24,998 nucleotides of DNA, taken from positions 1-24,998 of IMG/VR virus record IMGVR_UViG_3300032294_000444. One strand, 5' to 3'. The stretch is from a virus. This document shows positions 3,849 through 15,239 of this stretch, piece after piece. Each line of letters starts with the position of its first letter. Positions within the stretch are counted from its first letter, which is position 1. The notes beneath the pieces are model-generated. The model was not told the origin of the DNA. It worked only from the letters and a program-made list of their open reading frames with translations, and made no database searches. The position numbers were made by a program, and so were the translations under genes.

Positions 3849-3971
3849 GCGGTTGCGATCTTGTCCATCTTGTATTCATGACGCAGCCATGCGTTTTTCT
3901 TTTAAGCAATCGTCTACATTTATAAAATTGCTTAGTAAATGTTAACGCCCCATAATCGGGGCGTTTTTTTT
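3844..3971 (+). ncRNA. Candidate structured non-coding RNA ending in a terminator
   Basis: No convincing coding frame exists between 3849 and 3970. Bases 3844-3856 pair with 3906-3918 over 13 positions (eleven Watson-Crick, two G-U). The enclosed loop holds a hairpin at 3881-3894 (ACGCA, loop GCCA, TGCGT) followed by a T-run. Two alternative helices compete with the long one: 3904-3910 with 3927-3933 and 3916-3922 with 3936-3942, each 7 bp. The unit ends in the terminator at 3944-3971 and begins 3 nt behind a late-type promoter motif. An independent small RNA of about 125 nt, or a conformational switch in front of the terminator, fits this. I do not recognise a known RNA family. Confidence 0.45.
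3944..3971 (+). terminator. Rho-independent terminator of the tail-fibre block
   Basis: Perfect 8-bp stem AACGCCCC / GGGGCGTT with a 6-nt loop, ending in eight T residues (3964-3971). It acts on the + strand. The opposite direction lacks a comparable U-tract. It separates the fibre operon and RNA candidate from the convergent gene ending at 3970. Confidence 0.9.
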
Positions 3972-4368: not shown

Positions 4369-4540
4369 TTTTATCCTGTTGTTTTGTTTGATATTCTTTA
4401 TAAAAATTTATAAAGTTTGTTGCTTGTTTCTTGGTGTGAAAATACATACACCCATCATTAGGTGTAGAAACATAATAATTATATGGTCCCACACTATAAT
4501 CATTGATTGCAAGTACAGTTAATAGTTTTTCAGTTGCCAT
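4325..4540 (-). CDS. Small unknown protein, leftward gene (71 aa)
   Basis: The first about 50 residues form a compact fold with aromatic residues (AINDYSVGPYNYYVSTPNDG, then YFHTKKQATNFINFYKEYQ); the last about 20 are Lys/Gln/His-rich low complexity (QQDKNGNKQHKQHLQHIQ) and lie in the overlap with the next gene, so they may have grown from read-through. ATG 4540 has no Shine-Dalgarno sequence. Instead GATAAATA lies 5 nt upstream on the same strand, which would give a leaderless transcript if that motif is a promoter. The short aromatic domain with a conserved-looking FHTKKQA segment resembles other small phage proteins of unknown function. Confidence 0.55.
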   Translation of the reverse strand: MATEKLLTVLAINDYSVGPYNYYVSTPNDGCMYFHTKKQATNFINFYKEYQTKQQDKNGNKQHKQHLQHIQ

Positions 4541-4590: not shown

Positions 4591-4803
4591 CAGAGTCTTT
4601 GACTGGGATAATAGAAGATTGGAGTCAGTCAGTACTTTACAAGAATCATAACTAAAACACAATTGTAGTATAGCAACTTTTTCTGTGTATTCAAATACAT
4701 TTGGTGAAATTGCAATTTTACCATACTTATTTACAAGAAAAGCAATATCATGTATAAATACAGTGTAACTTTTGACAGAGTTACATTCTCCGTTATTTGT
4801 CAA
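4582..4803 (-). CDS. Doubtful leftward reading frame (73 aa)
   Basis: The frame would start with TTG at 4803 and has no Shine-Dalgarno sequence and no internal ATG. The predicted sequence has a plausible folded composition (YTVFIHDIAFLVNKYGKIAI, VAILQLCFSYDSCKVL) and is followed by a terminator on the same strand, which argues for it. Against it, its first 50 bases overlap on the other strand with a late-type promoter motif and the 5' hairpin of the structured leader. It could be a small gene with an unusual start or non-coding transcript. Confidence 0.3.
   Translation of the reverse strand: MTNNGECNSVKSYTVFIHDIAFLVNKYGKIAISPNVFEYTEKVAILQLCFSYDSCKVLTDSNLLLSQSKTLAP
4753..4760 (+). promoter_or_regulatory. 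T4-late-like promoter motif TATAAATA
   Basis: Exact match to the T4 late octamer, followed by CAGTGTAAC. The expected start is near 4766, within the first arm of a 7-bp hairpin (4764-4785). It would drive the structured leader and the gene at 4888. Confidence 0.5.
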
Positions 4804-4887
4804 CCGTGAGCAGATGTTGGTAGCGTCTGCTCACACTCTCTACCAAGAGTTCGACAAATACATGGAAACAAATAATAGGAGTCAAAA
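4764..4887 (+). promoter_or_regulatory. Structured RNA leader: three-way junction with complementary loops
   Basis: Helix P0: 4764-4770 with 4779-4785 (7 bp). P1: 4794-4801 with 4853-4860, a perfect 8-bp stem closing a three-way junction. P2: 4806-4816 with 4824-4834, 11 bp with one wobble, loop TTGGTAG (4817-4823). P3: 4835-4839 with 4846-4850, loop CTACCA (4840-4845). The P3 loop is fully complementary to TGGTAG in the P2 loop, so the two arms can dock side by side through a 6-bp loop-loop helix. The P0 loop (TTGACA, 4772-4777) can pair with 4798-4803 (extendable to 8 bp), which would break P1. CTCC at 4788-4791 could weakly pair with the GGAG ribosome site (4878-4881). The layout is that of a riboswitch or other cis-regulatory RNA; the junction does not match any class I know. 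Confidence 0.55.
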
Positions 4888-5652
4888 ATGAAACAAAACA
4901 ATATCGATCTAGGTACCTTAATTTCTGCTGAAATGTATTCTTATTCTAATCAGAAAGAGAAAAAGAAAGAGAAATTGAATAAGAATACATTTCAGCAAAG
5001 CACTGACCTTGCAGGTCCTACTGATGAAAATGTTCTGGCGCCCGCGCCAGTTTTCCTTACCGGTGCTTCGCACCCAAGAGCGAGAGAAAACCAGGAAGAC
5101 CAAGGCGTTGGCATCACGGAACCAAAATATGGGCGTCGCCTGAATCATAGAGATGATAAGATTGTTGAAATGCATTTACAAATTGGTCATGTAAAACTGG
5201 GCGACAGACATAGTAGAGTTAAAGCATATCTTTCCATAAAAACTGAAACAGACAACCGCTATATGATTTTTATGAGGTCAGCATTAACTTCAGCATTGGA
5301 CGAAACTTTTCGAAGCATTCGCAAAGATTGTGACAAAGTGTTAGAATCAGAAGCAAGTAACATTTATGCAGAACATCACAATCAAGGTCTGTTTATGGGC
5401 AGAGTAAAATATAAACCTGTAAAAGGTAATAAAATTCTTAAACATCATAGAAAGAATTTGCCACTCTCATTAATATCAGCATGGATACAAGATGGGTATT
5501 GGCATGTTGATTTTTATTTGCTAGACAGAAGTTATACATTTGTTTTAAATGAAGAGTTGTCAGAAAAACAAAAAGTTCATTATAGTGCTCAGGGAACTTG
5601 GTATGATGATGAATGTCCCACATTAAGTATTGAGGAGGCATTCGGTGGCTAA
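4888..5652 (+). CDS. Unknown 254-aa protein with palindrome-rich N-terminal region
   Basis: ATG 4888 is 6 nt behind AGGAG. Residues 1-90 look disordered: a Lys/Glu run (QKEKKKEKLNKN, about 22-33) and a proline/arginine-rich part (APAPVFLTGASHPRARENQE, 51-70). Residues about 92-245 look like a folded domain (IVEMHLQIGHVKLGDRHSRV, RYMIFMRSALTSALDETF, WIQDGYWHVDFYLLDRSYTF) that I do not recognise. The DNA of the first 75 codons contains a 21-bp inverted repeat and five short palindromes and is richer in GC and in codons such as GCG, CGC and GCC than the neighbours, suggesting an inserted segment. The gene lies directly behind the structured leader, so its expression is probably controlled by it. 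The next gene starts inside its last codons. Confidence 0.75.
   Translation: MKQNNIDLGTLISAEMYSYSNQKEKKKEKLNKNTFQQSTDLAGPTDENVLAPAPVFLTGASHPRARENQEDQGVGITEPKYGRRLNHRDDKIVEMHLQIGHVKLGDRHSRVKAYLSIKTETDNRYMIFMRSALTSALDETFRSIRKDCDKVLESEASNIYAEHHNQGLFMGRVKYKPVKGNKILKHHRKNLPLSLISAWIQDGYWHVDFYLLDRSYTFVLNEELSEKQKVHYSAQGTWYDDECPTLSIEEAFGG
4926..4997 (+). repeat. 21-bp perfect inverted repeat inside a coding region
   Basis: The left arm 4926-4946 (TGCTGAAATG...) is the exact reverse complement of 4977-4997, separated by a 30-nt purine-rich loop. It begins 38 nt after the start codon, so the mRNA can form a long hairpin in the early coding region. It may be a processing or translation-control element, or the footprint of a palindromic insertion. 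Confidence 0.9.
5005..5111 (+). repeat. Cluster of short GC-rich palindromes in codons 40-75
   Basis: In order: 5005-5017 (GACCT, TGC, AGGTC); 5035-5050 (CTGGCG, CCCG, CGCCAG); 5062-5074 (GGTGC, TTC, GCACC), itself enclosed by 5050-5055 pairing with 5086-5091 (GTTTTC/GAAAAC); and 5100-5111 (CCAA, GGCG, TTGG). The density and GC content are unlike the rest of the window and recall palindromic elements that insert in frame into genes. Confidence 0.65.
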
Positions 5653-5917
5653 GATGAATTATAATAGACCTATTCATCGTGAGATTGATGAACGCAAAAA
5701 AGATTTTACTGTAATTCGTAAAAAACCACTAGGTGATATGCCAGTACAACCTGCTAAAATGAACTTTGGTAAATACAAAGGCTTTTCATTAAAAGCGATA
5801 CCAAGTTCATATTTAGAATGGTTAATTACAGTTTGTAACGACGATAATCAAGCGATGCGTTATGCTAGAGAATTAGCAGATAGACCAGAATACTTAAGAC
5901 GCCATAAAATTGTTTGA
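5645..5917 (+). CDS. DUF3820/ExoX-C-like small protein (90 aa)
   Basis: I chose GTG 5645 because GAGGAGG at 5632-5638 is ideally spaced (6 nt); ATG 5654 is a weaker choice with 15 nt. The core NFGKYKGFSLKAIPSSYLEWLI (about residues 40-61) matches the FGKYKG...L..IP..YL.WL signature of DUF3820, a domain also found as the C-terminal part of exonuclease X and stand-alone in phages. The role of the stand-alone form is not established; a nucleic-acid-related accessory role is likely. The gene overlaps the upstream one by 8 nt, so it is translationally coupled to it. An N-terminal basic segment (HREIDERKKDFTVIRKK) precedes the domain. Confidence 0.7.
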   Translation: MAKMNYNRPIHREIDERKKDFTVIRKKPLGDMPVQPAKMNFGKYKGFSLKAIPSSYLEWLITVCNDDNQAMRYARELADRPEYLRRHKIV

Positions 5918-5949
5918 TTTAGAGCAATGGATCAATAACAGGTAACTAT

Positions 5950-6339
5950 ATGATCAATCCACATAATAGCCCATGGCTAAACTCTATTCGTATACAAGAT
6001 CGCATACGAGATGTAAAATTAAAATCAAAATTTAATAATATCAGCAAATACGCAATATCCAAGATAAATGGTATTGATTATAATGGTGTACTGACCATTA
6101 ATAAAAATATTTACATAGCAAAAAATTCTACCAAATTCAGATTGCGTAGTCATTTGGATTGGGCTTGGTATACACCTCAAACATTGGCACAAGCAATTGA
6201 TTTAGATCAAGTCGAAGCATATTATGAAATAATGCTAAAGCACATTAATAGTGATCCAAACGTTTGGAAAAATACTGACTTTGAAATGGAACTTAAAAGT
6301 TATTATGCAGAAAGAGTAGGCAGGGCAAATTTAATATAA
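5950..6339 (+). CDS. Unknown protein (129 aa)
   Basis: ATG 5950 follows ACAGGTAACTAT, with a weak AGG ribosome site. The product is mixed alpha/beta with a Tyr- and Trp-rich middle (LRSHLDWAWYTPQTLAQAIDL, about 77-97) and a C-terminal helical part. It has no cysteine, no membrane segment and no motif I recognise. Its stop codon lies inside the promoter-like octamer 6335-6342, so this gene is the last of the small operon starting at 4888 and abuts the next RNA unit. Confidence 0.65.
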   Translation: MINPHNSPWLNSIRIQDRIRDVKLKSKFNNISKYAISKINGIDYNGVLTINKNIYIAKNSTKFRLRSHLDWAWYTPQTLAQAIDLDQVEAYYEIMLKHINSDPNVWKNTDFEMELKSYYAERVGRANLI

Positions 6340-6346: not shown

Positions 6347-6412
6347 TGTCGTAAGACACCTTCGTATACCAACTAGGTGGGGGACAGGCAGTGGGGCTTG
6401 TCCCCCTTTTTT
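6347..6412 (+). ncRNA. Candidate short non-coding RNA (about 65 nt)
   Basis: Non-coding interval with three hairpins: 6347-6358 (TGTC, GNRA-type loop GTAA, GACA), 6358-6378 (ACCT with AGGT), and the terminator stem 6379-6406. The start matches the expected transcription start of the late-type motif at 6335-6342. No frame with a ribosome site is present. It may be an independent small RNA or simply the 3' end of the upstream mRNA; no known family is recognised. Confidence 0.35.
6379..6412 (+). terminator. Rho-independent terminator
   Basis: GGGGGACAGG pairs with CTTGTCCCCC (10 bp with one G-U) around an 8-nt loop, followed by six T residues (6407-6412). It ends the 4888-6339 operon and the RNA candidate. 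Confidence 0.9.
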
Positions 6413-6451
6413 GCCTTTTAGTACCCATAAACCGATATTTTTTGTCATTTA

Positions 6452-6918: not shown

Positions 6919-7863
6919 ATGACTATGAACAAACAACATCAACTATACCCCGACACTGATATCATTAGTTGGAAATTAACTAATACCACTAACATACCCG
7001 TATATGTACCAAATGGTATTAAACCAATTGTCAATCCTGATATTACTAGATTACAACCAACAGTAAATGAAATAATATCTAGTAGAACACGTTATACAGA
7101 TACGTTCTATACTTATTTGCGTGATACCATTATAGGTCAAAGCATTCGTTTATATGGCGAATACACACAAGTAGAACTAGACTTATTAAAACAATTTAGT
7201 AACAATCAAAGTATCATCTATGACATAGGTGCTAACATTGGTTATCATACATTAGGCTTTAGTCATATGGCTAAGCATGTTTATGCTTTTGAACCAAACA
7301 CTAAAAGTTATAAACTATTACAAATGAACACCAAAAATAGAAAAAACATTACATTGTATAAAAAGATTGTTGGTGATAAAGTAGGCAAAAATTATATCAG
7401 TGATTACGATACTAACAGTCAAGGTAACTATGGTGAATGCATGGTATCAAACACTGGTGAATTAGTAGATCAAATCAGTATTGATAGTTTATCATTACCT
7501 AAACCAGACATTATTAAGATAGATGTTGAAGGTTTTGAAATTAATGTATTCAATGGCGCAAAACGAACAATTAAGAAACATACGCCAATAATGTTTTATG
7601 AAAGTCATAACTGCAAAGAACTAGATCAGATTTATGATTTCTTACATGACGAGTGTGGTTATGAAATTTATTGGATACCAAGTCCAAACTTTAATCCAAA
7701 TAATTTCAAGAAGAATCAAGAAAACGTCTTTGGATATGGTGGTGTTGTAAATTGTCTAGCATTACCTAAACGATTAAATCCAGCACACAATTCACAAACT
7801 GTAATAGATAGAAATGATACGCATATGAAGTTTTACGATAGAATGAGTAAGGTGAGTAAATGA
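6919..7863 (+). CDS. FkbM-family SAM-dependent methyltransferase (314 aa)
   Basis: Class I methyltransferase core with motif I at about 101-111 (YDIGANIGYHT, SAM-binding glycine loop), motif II at 121-127 (VYAFEPN, acidic residue for the ribose), and the FkbM signature PDIIKIDVEGFEINVFNGA at about 196-214, followed by IMFYESH. FkbM enzymes methylate oxygen atoms, mostly of sugars and polyketides; phage copies are thought to modify glycans or virion parts, but the substrate here is unknown. The N-terminal about 90 residues are an extra region. Two close ATG codons exist (6919 and 6925); no strong Shine-Dalgarno sequence precedes them. The end overlaps the next gene (ATGA), linking it to the NUMOD3-like protein. 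Confidence 0.85.
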   Translation: MTMNKQHQLYPDTDIISWKLTNTTNIPVYVPNGIKPIVNPDITRLQPTVNEIISSRTRYTDTFYTYLRDTIIGQSIRLYGEYTQVELDLLKQFSNNQSIIYDIGANIGYHTLGFSHMAKHVYAFEPNTKSYKLLQMNTKNRKNITLYKKIVGDKVGKNYISDYDTNSQGNYGECMVSNTGELVDQISIDSLSLPKPDIIKIDVEGFEINVFNGAKRTIKKHTPIMFYESHNCKELDQIYDFLHDECGYEIYWIPSPNFNPNNFKKNQENVFGYGGVVNCLALPKRLNPAHNSQTVIDRNDTHMKFYDRMSKVSK

Positions 7864-9484: not shown

Positions 9485-9807
9485 ATAACAATCAGGCAGA
9501 AATCAAAAAGCGCGGTGGCAAAAGAAAAGGCGCCGGCAGAAAAGTTGGATCTACCAACAAGATTCAAGGTGGTGAATTTCTAGAAGAATACTTTAAATTG
9601 CATGGCAATTCACTAAAAGAAGATTTAGTTCAAGATATGTACAATGCTAGAATGCGTGGTGATCATGACATGTTGTTTAGATACCAAACTGCATTTGCAA
9701 AATATTATTTTAGTGATGTTCAACAAGTTGATGTTACTAGTAAAGGCGAAGCAATAAGTGTTGGATTCACATTTCCTAGTGTTGAATTAAACGACTGGAA
9801 AGAATGA
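9466..9807 (+). CDS. terS: Probable terminase small subunit (113 aa)
   Basis: The N-terminal segment KKRGGKRKGAGRKVGSTNK (about residues 14-32) is the basic GGxxKGAGRK signature seen at the start of many small terminases and related DNA-binding proteins. A helical region follows (FLEEYFKLHGNSLKEDLVQD, MYNARMRGDHDMLFRYQTAF) and a short beta-like tail (AISVGFTFPSVEL). The 4-nt ATGA overlap with the large subunit is the usual arrangement. It would recognise the phage DNA and feed it to the large subunit. At 113 aa it is short for a small terminase, so the assignment rests on the basic motif plus position. Confidence 0.7.
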   Translation: MENNILNNNQAEIKKRGGKRKGAGRKVGSTNKIQGGEFLEEYFKLHGNSLKEDLVQDMYNARMRGDHDMLFRYQTAFAKYYFSDVQQVDVTSKGEAISVGFTFPSVELNDWKE

Positions 9808-11240
9808 AAAAGGTACAGGTTCCCCTTTATGGCGAACAAAACACTATTCTAGCAGATTGGCTCACTACTGATAAGCATTGTGTGGACATAGTTCCTGTTG
9901 GTAGTGGAAAGACATTCCTCGCGGCAATTGCTTTGCCAATATTCGCTACTGACTCTCGTTTTCATAAAGGAAAAGATATTATATACAGTGCGCCCACTGG
10001 ATCCATGATTAAAGCATTGATATGGGAACCATTAAAGCGTAGTTGTATAGAATATTATGGATTAACTGATGGCAAAGACATTAACAACAGTGAACTTACC
10101 ATTAAGTTCCCAAATGGAATATTTATTAGGTGTAAATCAGCAGAACAACGAGAAAACTTGCGTGGTCTTAACGTCGGTGTGTGGGTCGCAGACGAAGCAG
10201 CATTATATACTCAAGACACATTGCAAGAAATCACAAACAGACTTAGACCTAAAGTTGGACAACCCGATACAGCCGGTAGACTTATTGTTATCAGCACGCC
10301 AAACGGAACAGGACCACTTTACGACTTGTTTGTACTTGCTCAACAAAACCCTGAACGATACATCGTTAGACACTACAACTATATTGAAATGCGTTCAGGA
10401 AATCGTGCATTCATATCTGAACAAAAACGAATTATAAGCCCATTAAAATTTGCACAAGATTATATGTGCCAATGGGAGAGTGTGGCAGATATGTTTTTCT
10501 ATGCATGGGATAAAACAAAACACACAGGTGAAATTAAAGATAGGTACGGTGATCTTTATACATTCCATGACTTTAACAAACGAGTAATGTGTGCAACAGT
10601 AGCGCAAGTTACTAAGCCAGGTGATTTAAATGGCAAAATGGAAATCTTAAAAAGTTATGCAATACCTGATTGTAGTACAGAAGGCATAGCAAGCGCAATT
10701 CGTTTAGACTTTCCTAAACGTAGAATCAATAGCATTATAGACATGAGTGGTACGCAATTGAATCGTGATACCACAAGCGCATTCGGTGTAACAGACAAAA
10801 TCATATTAGAGAAATATGGTTTTACTATTGTCAATAACCGCAAGAGCAATCCATTAGTATCAGACACTGACAATACAAGTAACGCATTTATTGCTAGAGG
10901 TGGACTTGTTGTGCAACCCGATGATAAATTTTTGCTTGAAGCATTAGGAACATACCACTATGAAGATGCCTCACGCAAACGTTTAGTAAAGTATACTGAA
11001 CAAAAATATGCACACATCGACGGTTTAGGAGATTGTATTCGTTATGGAATACATTATCTATTCCCAATCGTTCATGAAAGTATAGGAATACCTGAATACG
11101 TTGGTATGGATCCACGATTAATAAGACAATCTAGACCAGGAGTACAACACATGCCTGATAGTCCACTATATCCTGGTGGGCCAACGATGGAAGAAATATT
11201 AGGTATGACAGACGAAAAAGATTACCAAATTTGGAGTTGA
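9804..11240 (+). CDS. terL: Terminase large subunit (478 aa)
   Basis: DNA-packaging motor. ATPase part: Walker A VGSGKT at 32-37 (preceded by HCVDIVP), Walker B VGVWVADEA at 124-132 with Asp130/Glu131, and coupling motif ISTPNG at 163-168. Nuclease part (RNase H fold): candidate acidic residues Asp256 (FHDFN), Asp313 (IIDMSG) and Asp406/Asp410 (HIDGLGD). The order and length match phage large terminases. It docks on the portal and drives ATP-powered packaging and cutting of concatemers. The start overlaps the small subunit by ATGA. An HNH endonuclease separates it from the portal gene. Confidence 0.9.
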   Translation: MKKVQVPLYGEQNTILADWLTTDKHCVDIVPVGSGKTFLAAIALPIFATDSRFHKGKDIIYSAPTGSMIKALIWEPLKRSCIEYYGLTDGKDINNSELTIKFPNGIFIRCKSAEQRENLRGLNVGVWVADEAALYTQDTLQEITNRLRPKVGQPDTAGRLIVISTPNGTGPLYDLFVLAQQNPERYIVRHYNYIEMRSGNRAFISEQKRIISPLKFAQDYMCQWESVADMFFYAWDKTKHTGEIKDRYGDLYTFHDFNKRVMCATVAQVTKPGDLNGKMEILKSYAIPDCSTEGIASAIRLDFPKRRINSIIDMSGTQLNRDTTSAFGVTDKIILEKYGFTIVNNRKSNPLVSDTDNTSNAFIARGGLVVQPDDKFLLEALGTYHYEDASRKRLVKYTEQKYAHIDGLGDCIRYGIHYLFPIVHESIGIPEYVGMDPRLIRQSRPGVQHMPDSPLYPGGPTMEEILGMTDEKDYQIWS

Positions 11241-11693: not shown

Positions 11694-13319
11694 ATGCAAA
11701 ACAAAGAACTTTTAAATAAGAATCCTATATACGATCAAATCTACTTACAAATGCTTACATATCAGCAAGCATATCTTGGTGGATTACCATTCAAAATGAT
11801 GGTTCGTAAAAAGCGCCCTAGTGAAGATAGCACACTATGGCAAGACTTAGTTAATAACACAGTGGCACAACCAATTTGTCGTTATATCGTTGACACAATC
11901 AATGACGTACTATTCGAGCCTGGTGTAAAGCGTAATGTACAATTTGCCTCACCGACCGGCGCAATCATTAATCCTAAAAACGCAGAGTGGGCTGATCTAT
12001 TTTTGTTAGATGCAGATTTAACTAATCGTAGCATGACAAGTTTTATGGAATCCCTAGGTGATTTAACAAGTATATATGGTCATTGCTGGGTAGCAGTAGA
12101 TATGCCACAAGAACAGCAAGGTAATTTAGGTAGACCCTATGTTTGTGCAATAAATCCATTAGACGTTTGGGATTGGGAATTTGATTACTATGGTGGTCGT
12201 CCAATGCTGAAGTATGTTAAAGTCAAAGAGATGGAAGAAGAAGATTGTTACTATATTAAGTGCTATCATCTTGGCGATGCAAACACTCCTAGTTACTGGC
12301 GTAGTTATGAAGTGCCTAAATCAGTTAATGGTAGCGCACAATTAAATCAAGAAGCAGAATTAATTGGAGAAGGTGCATTTCCACCTGGCATGAGTCTTCC
12401 AATATTCATTGCATATGGTCGTCGTGATCCAAGACGTATTGACGTTGGTATAAGTGATATTGATAGTGCAACCGATGCGCAAAGACAAATCTACAAACTA
12501 GAATGTGAAAAATACACTGCAATACAATTTGCACACACTATTATTCGTGCAGATAAAGGCATCAGCATTCCAGTACACGCTGGCGCAATTGTAAGAGCAA
12601 ATGAAGGTCAAGTAGAAGCAATTGCAATTGATACAGGTGATGTTGATACCATTATTAAAGCACAACAAGATATACTAGAACAAATTGAAGCACTAACTGG
12701 TTTAGGTGGATTACGCAATAGTAAAAATCAAATTGCTAGTGGCGTGGCTATTATAGAAGAACGCAAGCAATTACACAGACTTGCTAAAGCGAAAGCAAGA
12801 TTGATGGAAGTCTGTGAAGAAATGATATTCACCTATGCAGCACGTTTTATGAATGTGCGTTGGGCAGGTGAAGTACTTTATAACACTGACTATGAAGCAC
12901 ATGATACTAATTATAGAATGGCATTAATCAAGGCTGCTAAAGATTTGGTTGGTGATAACAGTGTGGTTCAAAGTTTAATCACAAAAGAAATTATTGGTAT
13001 GCTTGCTCCAGCAACAAGTATCCCAGAATATGAGCAGGTCTATATTGATTCGATAGAAGATACTGCTGTCAAAACATTAATGACTCAAGACAATACACAA
13101 GTATTGAGCCGTGATCTGGAACCGAGTATGATCCCACAACATGAAATGTATGGTGAGGAAGAATCAGAAACAGAAGATAACGGCGATGGTGTTGCAGAGA
13201 ATGGTGATAATACAAGCATACTAGGTGGCGCAGGTACTCCTGTTACCAACGTTGGTATGACATATTATACAGCGCAAGTAGCACCAGCCATGCTTAACAC
13301 AATGAGTACTGGGCGTTAA
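11694..13319 (+). CDS. Portal protein (541 aa)
   Basis: A protein of portal length directly after the packaging genes. Visible features: an N-terminal helical region (YDQIYLQMLTYQQAYLGG), VAQPICRYIVDTINDVLFEP at about 58-77, the mid-domain ending in NPLDVWDWEFDYYGG (about 156-170), and the long helical stem region with IKAQQDILEQIEALTGLGGL (about 321-340). The last about 60 residues are acidic and glycine-rich (EEESETEDNGDGVAENGDN), probably disordered. The dodecameric ring forms the DNA gate at one vertex of the head and nucleates assembly. Preceded by a late-type motif; no strong Shine-Dalgarno sequence. A GCAA-capped hairpin overlaps its stop codon. Confidence 0.82.
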   Translation: MQNKELLNKNPIYDQIYLQMLTYQQAYLGGLPFKMMVRKKRPSEDSTLWQDLVNNTVAQPICRYIVDTINDVLFEPGVKRNVQFASPTGAIINPKNAEWADLFLLDADLTNRSMTSFMESLGDLTSIYGHCWVAVDMPQEQQGNLGRPYVCAINPLDVWDWEFDYYGGRPMLKYVKVKEMEEEDCYYIKCYHLGDANTPSYWRSYEVPKSVNGSAQLNQEAELIGEGAFPPGMSLPIFIAYGRRDPRRIDVGISDIDSATDAQRQIYKLECEKYTAIQFAHTIIRADKGISIPVHAGAIVRANEGQVEAIAIDTGDVDTIIKAQQDILEQIEALTGLGGLRNSKNQIASGVAIIEERKQLHRLAKAKARLMEVCEEMIFTYAARFMNVRWAGEVLYNTDYEAHDTNYRMALIKAAKDLVGDNSVVQSLITKEIIGMLAPATSIPEYEQVYIDSIEDTAVKTLMTQDNTQVLSRDLEPSMIPQHEMYGEEESETEDNGDGVAENGDNTSILGGAGTPVTNVGMTYYTAQVAPAMLNTMSTGR

Positions 13320-14201: not shown

Positions 14202-15239
14202 ATGGCTTATGTTCTTGGCGGTGCAAATAACGAAGCAGATGGCTTCACAACCGCAATTTCTAATTTCGCATTACGTGCTATGCACGAAAGTACAGGTCTA
14301 GTTACTATGACTAATGTTGTTCAACCTACTCAAGGTCAAACATTCTTAGTTCCTAACTTTGCACCTATCACATATCAGGATTACAATCCTAACGGTACTG
14401 GTGGTACATATGGTACTGGTAACGCTGTTGTTCAGAACCCAAGTCTTGACCAAGGTTCTATCACTGCTACCCCAGCAGTTGCACAAACTGCATTCGATAT
14501 TTTCTACGGTTGGACTACTAGTTTCCAATTGGCAGCAACTCTTGGTGCTGAATTGGGCGAAAGTTTCGCAGAAAAAGTCGATCAGCGTGTAACAAAGGCA
14601 TTCTTGAGTTTCAAAGCAACTCCAAGCAATACTTACTACAGCCCAACTCCAGCAGACGGTTTCGCTCGCGTCACAGAATTAGGCGCTATGGAATTGGCTG
14701 AGTCTGGTAACGCATTGGCTAACGCTACTGTTGGTTTCAGTGACAACACTGTCCTAGGAACAATTCGTAACATCAAGCAAAACTTCAAAGTTGCTCGTAT
14801 GCCTGGCACTCCAGTTATTGTTCTTGACAGTAACGGTGAAGCAGAAGGTACAGTTGCAGGACAAACTGGTTCTAGTTTGAATCGTTTACTTGCAGAATTG
14901 ACTGGTGGTGCAGTTTCTCAATCAGGTGGATCTAATCTATCCGCTCTTGGTAACGAGTTGCTAGCAACTGGTCGTATCGAAAGTGTATACGGTTGTATGG
15001 TCATGTTCACTACATTCTTGCCAACTGCAAGCCGTACATTCCTAGGAGTTGCTGCACAAAGTGTTCTTGTTGGCGCTTACTTCGGTGACAGTGCATTATT
15101 CACTGTTATGAAGGAAGGTCTACAATTGAAGACTGGTGAAGTTCCAGGTGGATTGCAAATTTGGTTGACTGGCGTTGGCTACTTCGGTGCTGGTGTTGGT
15201 GACCTACGTAGAGGCGGAGCAATTAACATTCAGCAGTAA
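14202..15239 (+). CDS. Major capsid protein (345 aa)
   Basis: Position after the scaffold, strong GGAG ribosome site 8 nt upstream, and length fit a HK97-fold major capsid protein. The sequence begins MAYVLGGANNEADGFTTAIS and ends GVGDLRRGGAINIQQ. Codons are clearly biased to C- and G-ending forms (GGT, GCA, AAC, TTC) compared with the small genes, as expected for a highly expressed protein. The segment LRAMHESTGLVTMTNVVQPTQ has the helix-then-strand look of the N-arm region; TPVIVLDSNGEAEG may be part of the P-domain. I see no maturation-cleavage site by inspection. A GCAA hairpin follows the stop. Confidence 0.82.
   Translation: MAYVLGGANNEADGFTTAISNFALRAMHESTGLVTMTNVVQPTQGQTFLVPNFAPITYQDYNPNGTGGTYGTGNAVVQNPSLDQGSITATPAVAQTAFDIFYGWTTSFQLAATLGAELGESFAEKVDQRVTKAFLSFKATPSNTYYSPTPADGFARVTELGAMELAESGNALANATVGFSDNTVLGTIRNIKQNFKVARMPGTPVIVLDSNGEAEGTVAGQTGSSLNRLLAELTGGAVSQSGGSNLSALGNELLATGRIESVYGCMVMFTTFLPTASRTFLGVAAQSVLVGAYFGDSALFTVMKEGLQLKTGEVPGGLQIWLTGVGYFGAGVGDLRRGGAINIQQ

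Follow-up and report, generated by a model that had tools for sequence, protein, structure and literature searches.

A covariation-supported kissing-loop 5' leader of uncultured phages as a candidate bistable translational switch

The 124-nt leader described here occupies positions 4764-4887 of a 24,998-bp virus record (the window, meaning the whole stretch of DNA analyzed), which also carries a terminase gene (9804-11240) and a portal gene (11694-13319). Judging from the sequence comparisons, it belongs to a real and covariation-supported family of bistable 5' leaders that had not been catalogued before and occurs in a group of uncultured phages; at the start of a phage transcript, it probably acts in cis as a bistable switch of translation. 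The pairings of the leader, their covariation, the near-equal energies of its two folds, its recurrence and its position in an operon were obtained by computation, and the control of translation initiation is its best-supported function. On the plus strand, no intrinsic terminator with a U run was found within 4764-4887, and attenuation by such a terminator is therefore unlikely. Phages have few known regulatory RNAs, and the present one has covariation support across tens of uncultured genomes; with its covarying kissing helix, its decoy that mimics the Shine-Dalgarno (SD) sequence and its strand exchange between near-isoenergetic folds, it offers a clean switch that lends itself to testing.

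The leader lies, on the plus strand, between a TATAAATA box and the SD site of a gene for a 254-aa protein. It begins with the 5'-terminal hairpin P0 (4764-4785; arms TGTAACT and AGTTACA, loop region CTTTTGACAG), and between P0 and P2 lies the switch strand S5 (CTCCGTTATTTGTCAA, 4788-4803), which contains the anti-SD. Two adjacent hairpins follow: P2 (4806-4834, pairing 4806-4816 with 4824-4834), of 11 bp with one G.U pair and the loop TTGGTAG (4817-4823), and P3 (4835-4850, pairing 4835-4839 with 4846-4850), of 5 bp with the loop CTACCA (4840-4845). The decoy strand (4853-4866), which is the 3' strand of helix P1, pairs with 4789-4801 around a bulged C4861 and contains an SD-like TGGA; the SD strand ACAAATAATAGGAG (4868-4881) holds the SD, AGGAG, at 4877-4881, and its partner in the OFF state would be 4788-4800. 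An earlier note on this DNA had reported an 8-bp closing helix around arms of 11 and 5 bp with complementary loops, and these elements are indeed there: the helix is part of P1 (TATTTGTC at 4794-4801 with GACAAATA at 4853-4860), and the loop match extends to an exact 7-nt complement, TTGGTAG/CTACCAA, giving a loop-loop (kissing) helix K of 7 bp between 4817-4823 and 4840-4846. The minimum free energy of the leader is -43.2 kcal/mol, as against -23.4 +/- 3.7 kcal/mol in 200 dinucleotide shuffles, none of which folds as well (z -5.4). This value, and the fact that about 32 other contigs share the layout and show compensatory changes in it, bear out the view that the leader is structured other than by chance, and computation likewise supports its description as a regulatory 5' leader built on a three-way junction whose parallel arms are joined by a loop-loop helix.

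The other contigs with this layout also come from uncultured phages (about 33 in all, including the window), and in the records searched there is one element each, located 3.4-7.0 kb upstream of the terminase. They were sought among IMG/VR terminase relatives with long upstream regions, and further members came from searches with a descriptor, with covariance models and with a sequence pattern. The first covariance model, R1, retained the P2 pairs only, since MAFFT alignment of the leaders is blind to structure, and it served as a sequence-plus-P2 search tool; the pattern GAAGTCCCN{8,18}GGGGCTTCATCT leaves the loops open and gave five leaders (L159, L160, L161, L164 and L165). A homologue of the 254-aa protein occurs in six terminase relatives, each of which has a leader of the same layout and diverged sequence upstream, and the layout also precedes unrelated genes in L047, L064 and L007. 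The leader was not found in three terminase relatives with enough upstream sequence (L017, L049 and L148). Exact loop patterns were abandoned as a finder in viral contigs after yielding many chance matches within genes. A search for TerL in GTDB genomes, meant as a clue to the host, gave no match, and DNA similarity to cultured phages amounted to short matches in Bragavirus, inside an annotated coding gene, and in Enterocloster phages, all judged coincidental.

Covariation was scored on 25 distinct cores, registered by hand and N-padded, with two bulged bases removed from L022. Over P2, P3 and the kissing helix, 98.2% of 554 cells are standard pairs (73.8% in shuffles), two-sided changes affect 22 of the 25 pairs (12.6 in shuffles) and 134 cells (30.8 in shuffles), and the covariation score of 0.596 (0.177 in shuffles) was reached by none of 500 shuffles. 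Slid controls scored 0.08-0.14, with paired cells down to 40-49%, a comparison biased in favour of the expected pairing because the registers were set by hand with that pairing in view; the exact loop complementarity of the unaligned sequences is independent of these registers. All cells of the 11 P2 pairs are paired in the 25 leaders, with two-sided changes in 10 pairs; for P3 the figure is 98.4%, with two-sided changes in six of six pairs. P2 measures 10-11 bp in nearly all leaders, often with one bulged U, and P3 4-6 bp.

The kissing helix alone is 95.3% paired, as against 64.1% in shuffles, and has 58 two-sided cells, as against 16.3. It spans 6-8 bp, and the loops are complementary in every leader found, in combinations as different as UUGGUAG/CUACCAA, UUAGCGU/ACGCUAA, UUAGCGG/CCGCUAA, UUAGACC/GGUCUAA, UCUGACAG/CUGUCAGA, UCUGACGG/CCGUCAGA, UUUUGCGG/CCGCAAAA, AUGAUAG/CUAUCAU, AUUGCA/UGCAAU, UUGAACC/GGUUCAA, CUGAACC/GGUUCAG and CUGAAC/GUUCAG. 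Because part of the set came from a descriptor that demanded loop complementarity, the fair test of this helix is provided by the eight leaders found without a loop criterion, namely L137, L146 and L147 (through R1) and the five from the pattern. Each of the eight retains six or more loop-loop pairs; their kissing helix is 91.1% paired, as against 67.4%, and two-sided changes occur in six of eight pairs, as against 2.8 in shuffles.

S5 has two possible partners, the decoy and the SD strand, in the 19 leaders examined, although in L004 the decoy appears only if part of P3 is included. Across 20 leaders, the mean energy of S5 with its own decoy (P1) is -11.7, as against -6.9 with the strands of other clusters, and with its own SD strand -12.0, as against -7.5; in L147 the SD pairing is weakly specific, its own S5 ranking 10 of 20. 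When S5 was permuted over nine clusters, a split made by eye, the observed sum was reached in none of 20,000 rounds for P1 and in one for the anti-SD helix. Both helices also form in the five pattern-found leaders (p<=0.02 each against shuffled S5). The SD varies among leaders (AGGAG, AGGAA, AGGAT, GAGAAA and GAGGGA) and S5 changes accordingly, so that in L007 and L048 an SD of GAGAAA is matched by UUUCUC in S5. Compensating changes across homologues in P1, P2, P3 and the loop-loop helix, which the earlier note had named as a check on its structure, were looked for, and all four helices covary. The notion that stable hairpins merely protect the 5' end of the mRNA has in its favour that P0 stands at the likely 5' end of the transcript; we regard it as highly improbable, since it accounts neither for the kissing helix nor for an S5 that can pair with two strands and varies in step with compensatory changes in the SD.

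By computation, the leader has two folds that exclude each other, one leaving an expression signal exposed and the other hiding it. The earlier note had proposed two exclusive folds, which the computation supports, but the conserved alternative to P1 is the pairing of 4788-4800 with the SD strand 4868-4881 and not the invasion of the closing helix by the P0 loop. The complementarity on which the latter idea drew is present in the window (TTGACA at 4772-4777 with TGTCAA at 4798-4803) and is not the general switch: among the 20 leaders tested, pairing between the P0 loop and S5 is significant only in the window (8 bp), L047 and L105, borderline in L046 and L146 and unsupported in the rest. The P1 and anti-SD duplexes are nearly isoenergetic in most members. 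Full-leader ensembles, computed with neither the kissing helix nor tertiary contacts in the energies, put the release of the SD at 0.3-4.3 kcal/mol for 18 of 19 leaders, the exception being L004, for which the model prefers the OFF fold by 7.3 kcal/mol. A nascent-fold computation on the window has P1 appearing once the 3' end reaches 4856; with the SD strand out, the predicted occupancies for 4764-4887 are 0.44 for P1 and 0.56 for the anti-SD helix.

We infer the following course of events during transcription. The transcript would start near 4764, P0 would fold first and P2 and P3 after it, and the P2 and P3 loops would join as the 7-bp kissing helix. The decoy (4853-4866), once made, would capture S5, so that P1 closes the three-way junction; in this state the SD would be free and the first gene translatable (ON). 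The emerging SD strand (4868-4881) could then take S5 over from the decoy through strand exchange, and the resulting anti-SD helix would hide the SD (OFF). Such interconversion is plausible because the decoy and SD strands compete for one S5, and since the two folds differ little in energy, a modest signal could be enough to shift the equilibrium. That signal is quite possibly a trans-acting factor, the likeliest candidate, for which an RNA-binding protein of the phage or the host that recognizes the conserved P0 loop or the kissing P2/P3 module is the most likely form; next in likelihood, at a rather low probability, comes a small molecule or ion, a ligand-free folding timer is somewhat less likely still, and temperature would be an improbable trigger. 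As a separate observation, the decoys of L032, L034, L078, L126 and L123 contain an SD-like AGGAG or GGGAG upstream of the real SD (AGGAG in L032, L034, L078 and L126), and an exposed SD-like decoy in the OFF fold might serve as a ribosome standby site.

The decoy emerges ahead of the SD strand, the computed course has P1 forming first and the ratio then approaching 1:1, and the states are near-isoenergetic across members, all of which would suit a timer that needs no ligand, in which P1 allows early translation before the RNA relaxes to the anti-SD fold or ribosome loading holds it open; a simple timer needs neither the conserved kissing module nor the conserved P0 loop, however, and we consider this explanation unlikely. 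An RNA thermometer, in which heat melts the anti-SD helix, is very improbable: the SD can be sequestered in a helix of about -12 kcal/mol, but a thermometer has no need for a decoy that replaces the anti-SD partner or for a covarying kissing helix.

The layout invites comparison with the purine and 2'-deoxyguanosine riboswitches (RF00167 and relatives), in which P1 and parallel P2 and P3 hairpins are combined with a loop-loop contact (PMC8872408). The leader shares with them a three-way junction with P1 as the switch helix and two parallel hairpins joined through their loops, but it has no Rfam match, almost all of the 19 parsed leaders have a J2/3 of only 0-1 nt, and its P2 of 10-11 bp contrasts with a P3 of 4-6 bp. 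Across these 19 leaders there are no conserved junction bases, and the long conserved J2/3 and the J1/2 and J3/1 pocket bases of the purine class are lacking. Rfam 15 at the gathering threshold gave no match in the window, and at E<=10 the region 4700-4960 gave no purine-riboswitch match, nor did three relatives, with nothing credible overall; the earlier note's judgement that this is not a purine riboswitch despite the similar layout is upheld. Conserved unpaired bases are almost absent from the core, a feature that speaks against a purine-type or classical small-molecule pocket.

The same features weigh on the wider proposal of a metabolite or ion riboswitch, in which P2, P3 and the kissing helix would form a junction pocket whose ligand stabilizes P1 and exposes the SD. 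Besides the purine-like layout (PMC8872408), the exchange between P1 and anti-SD is a standard platform of translational riboswitches, and phage riboswitches exist, as illustrated by the glutamine riboswitch of the marine methylophage Melnitz (PMC9004378). Known aptamers, however, keep unpaired junction bases conserved, whereas here J2/3 is nearly absent and the core bases are, with few exceptions, both paired and free to change; moreover, the first genes are unrelated, with no obvious metabolic enzyme among them. We therefore think a metabolite or ion riboswitch fairly unlikely. Phage riboswitches are documented but rare (PMC9004378, PMC2864571), and they resemble the leader in being structured regulatory RNAs of aquatic phages upstream of phage genes, the manA and wcaG motifs of cyanophages (PMC2864571) included; their structures differ from it. 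The freshwater-2 RNA (RF02980) is likewise a short cis-regulatory leader that ends at the SD and start codon, and over its full length it matched L009 (17.3 bits) and L032 (14.8 bits) weakly, far short of the gathering score of 49.9. We rejected identity with it: none of 22 records exceeds the cut-off, nine of 14 well-known control genomes also score, its hairpin layout is another one, and the match relies on the SD region and a forced P0. In the plasmid RepZ leader, translation is controlled through a pseudoknot or kissing interaction, with loop pairing linked to SD access; here, in contrast, two neighbouring hairpins within the leader supply the kissing loops, and exchange of S5 between the decoy and the SD governs the latter. 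A literature search of incomplete coverage returned no description of the leader, so an earlier description is possible.

In P0, the arms vary across 20 leaders and yet stay complementary, while the loop, which is the best conserved single-stranded part of the leader, retains related sequence (UUGACA, GUGACAUUU, UAGAACUUU or UUUUGACA). Such a loop on varying but complementary arms favours, without proving, a trans-acting protein or RNA. Control by a phage or host RNA-binding protein, which would lock one fold through the P0 loop or the kissing module, is accordingly a reading that we put forward tentatively: a loop that stays GUGACAUUU- or UAGAACUUU-like while its arms vary is the pattern expected of a protein site, and the retention of the leader while the downstream gene changes makes a shared trans factor likelier than autoregulation by the first gene. 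The P0 loop could, however, serve transcription start or RNA stability instead.

The first genes behind the leader fall into at least seven families. The commonest comprises small proteins of 55-63 aa (L032, L047, L056, L078, L126, L160, L164 and L165); others are DUF5710 proteins (L022 and L146), a pair of 401 and 229 aa that are 44% identical (L034 and L147), and single proteins of 606, 105 and 58 aa (L004, L007 and L048). In the window, the first gene (4888-5652, plus strand) encodes the 254-aa protein, with homologues in L009, L011, L020, L027, L046, L071, L137 and L140. It has no PHROG, Pfam or PADLOC match, its predicted structure is of low confidence (pLDDT 61) and resembles only uncharacterized phage proteins, and neither it nor the protein at 14202-15239 has a relative in cultured phages. 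That the leader is conserved while its first genes change suggests reuse by the phages to place various genes under its control in infection. The leaders may, although this is speculative, form a new class of sensory RNA in which a kissing-loop three-way junction responds to a signal of infection (a protein of the phage or host, or an unrecognized ligand) by toggling S5 between the SD and a decoy that mimics it, so that varying cargo genes would occupy a conserved, controlled slot at the head of the unit upstream of the packaging genes. Identifying the trigger would reveal what these phages sense. Inside the 254-aa gene, we also observed a long inverted repeat at 4927-4998 (GCTGAAATGTATTCTTATTC ... 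GAATAAGAATACATTTCAGC, 20 bp in the window), which is kept in seven homologues (window, L009, L011, L020, L027, L046 and L071) with some compensatory changes; the codons between its arms diverge freely, and the repeat is apparently missing in L137.

Intrinsic terminators at 3944-3965, which closes the preceding unit, and at 6379-6413 indicate that the leader probably heads a three-gene unit at 4888-6339, comprising plus-strand genes for 254 aa (4888-5652), 95 aa (5630-5917) and 129 aa (5950-6339). The second terminator, on the plus strand after the gene ending at 6339, has an 11-bp stem with 8 GC followed by TTTTTT and probably ends this unit. Upstream of P0, the TATAAATA box (4753-4760, plus strand) resembles a promoter -10 or T4-late-like motif and may be the promoter of the unit; TAAATA stands 0-4 nt before the 5' hairpin in 20 of 20 leaders, and also in further leaders whose sequence reaches upstream. 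The whole window contains four TATAAATA boxes, as against 4.5 expected, and because they are not over-represented, the late-promoter reading draws on the fixed place of the box before P0. All four (4753, 6335, 11642 and 13342) are on the plus strand, shortly before genes, like T4-type late promoters. Upstream of the packaging genes, a gene for an FkbM-type methyltransferase lies at 6919-7863. A GC-rich hairpin of the minus strand (4590-4565) is followed by TTTGTTTT and a GATAAATA box just before an ATG at 4540, and the gene starting there may be read from a near-leaderless message.
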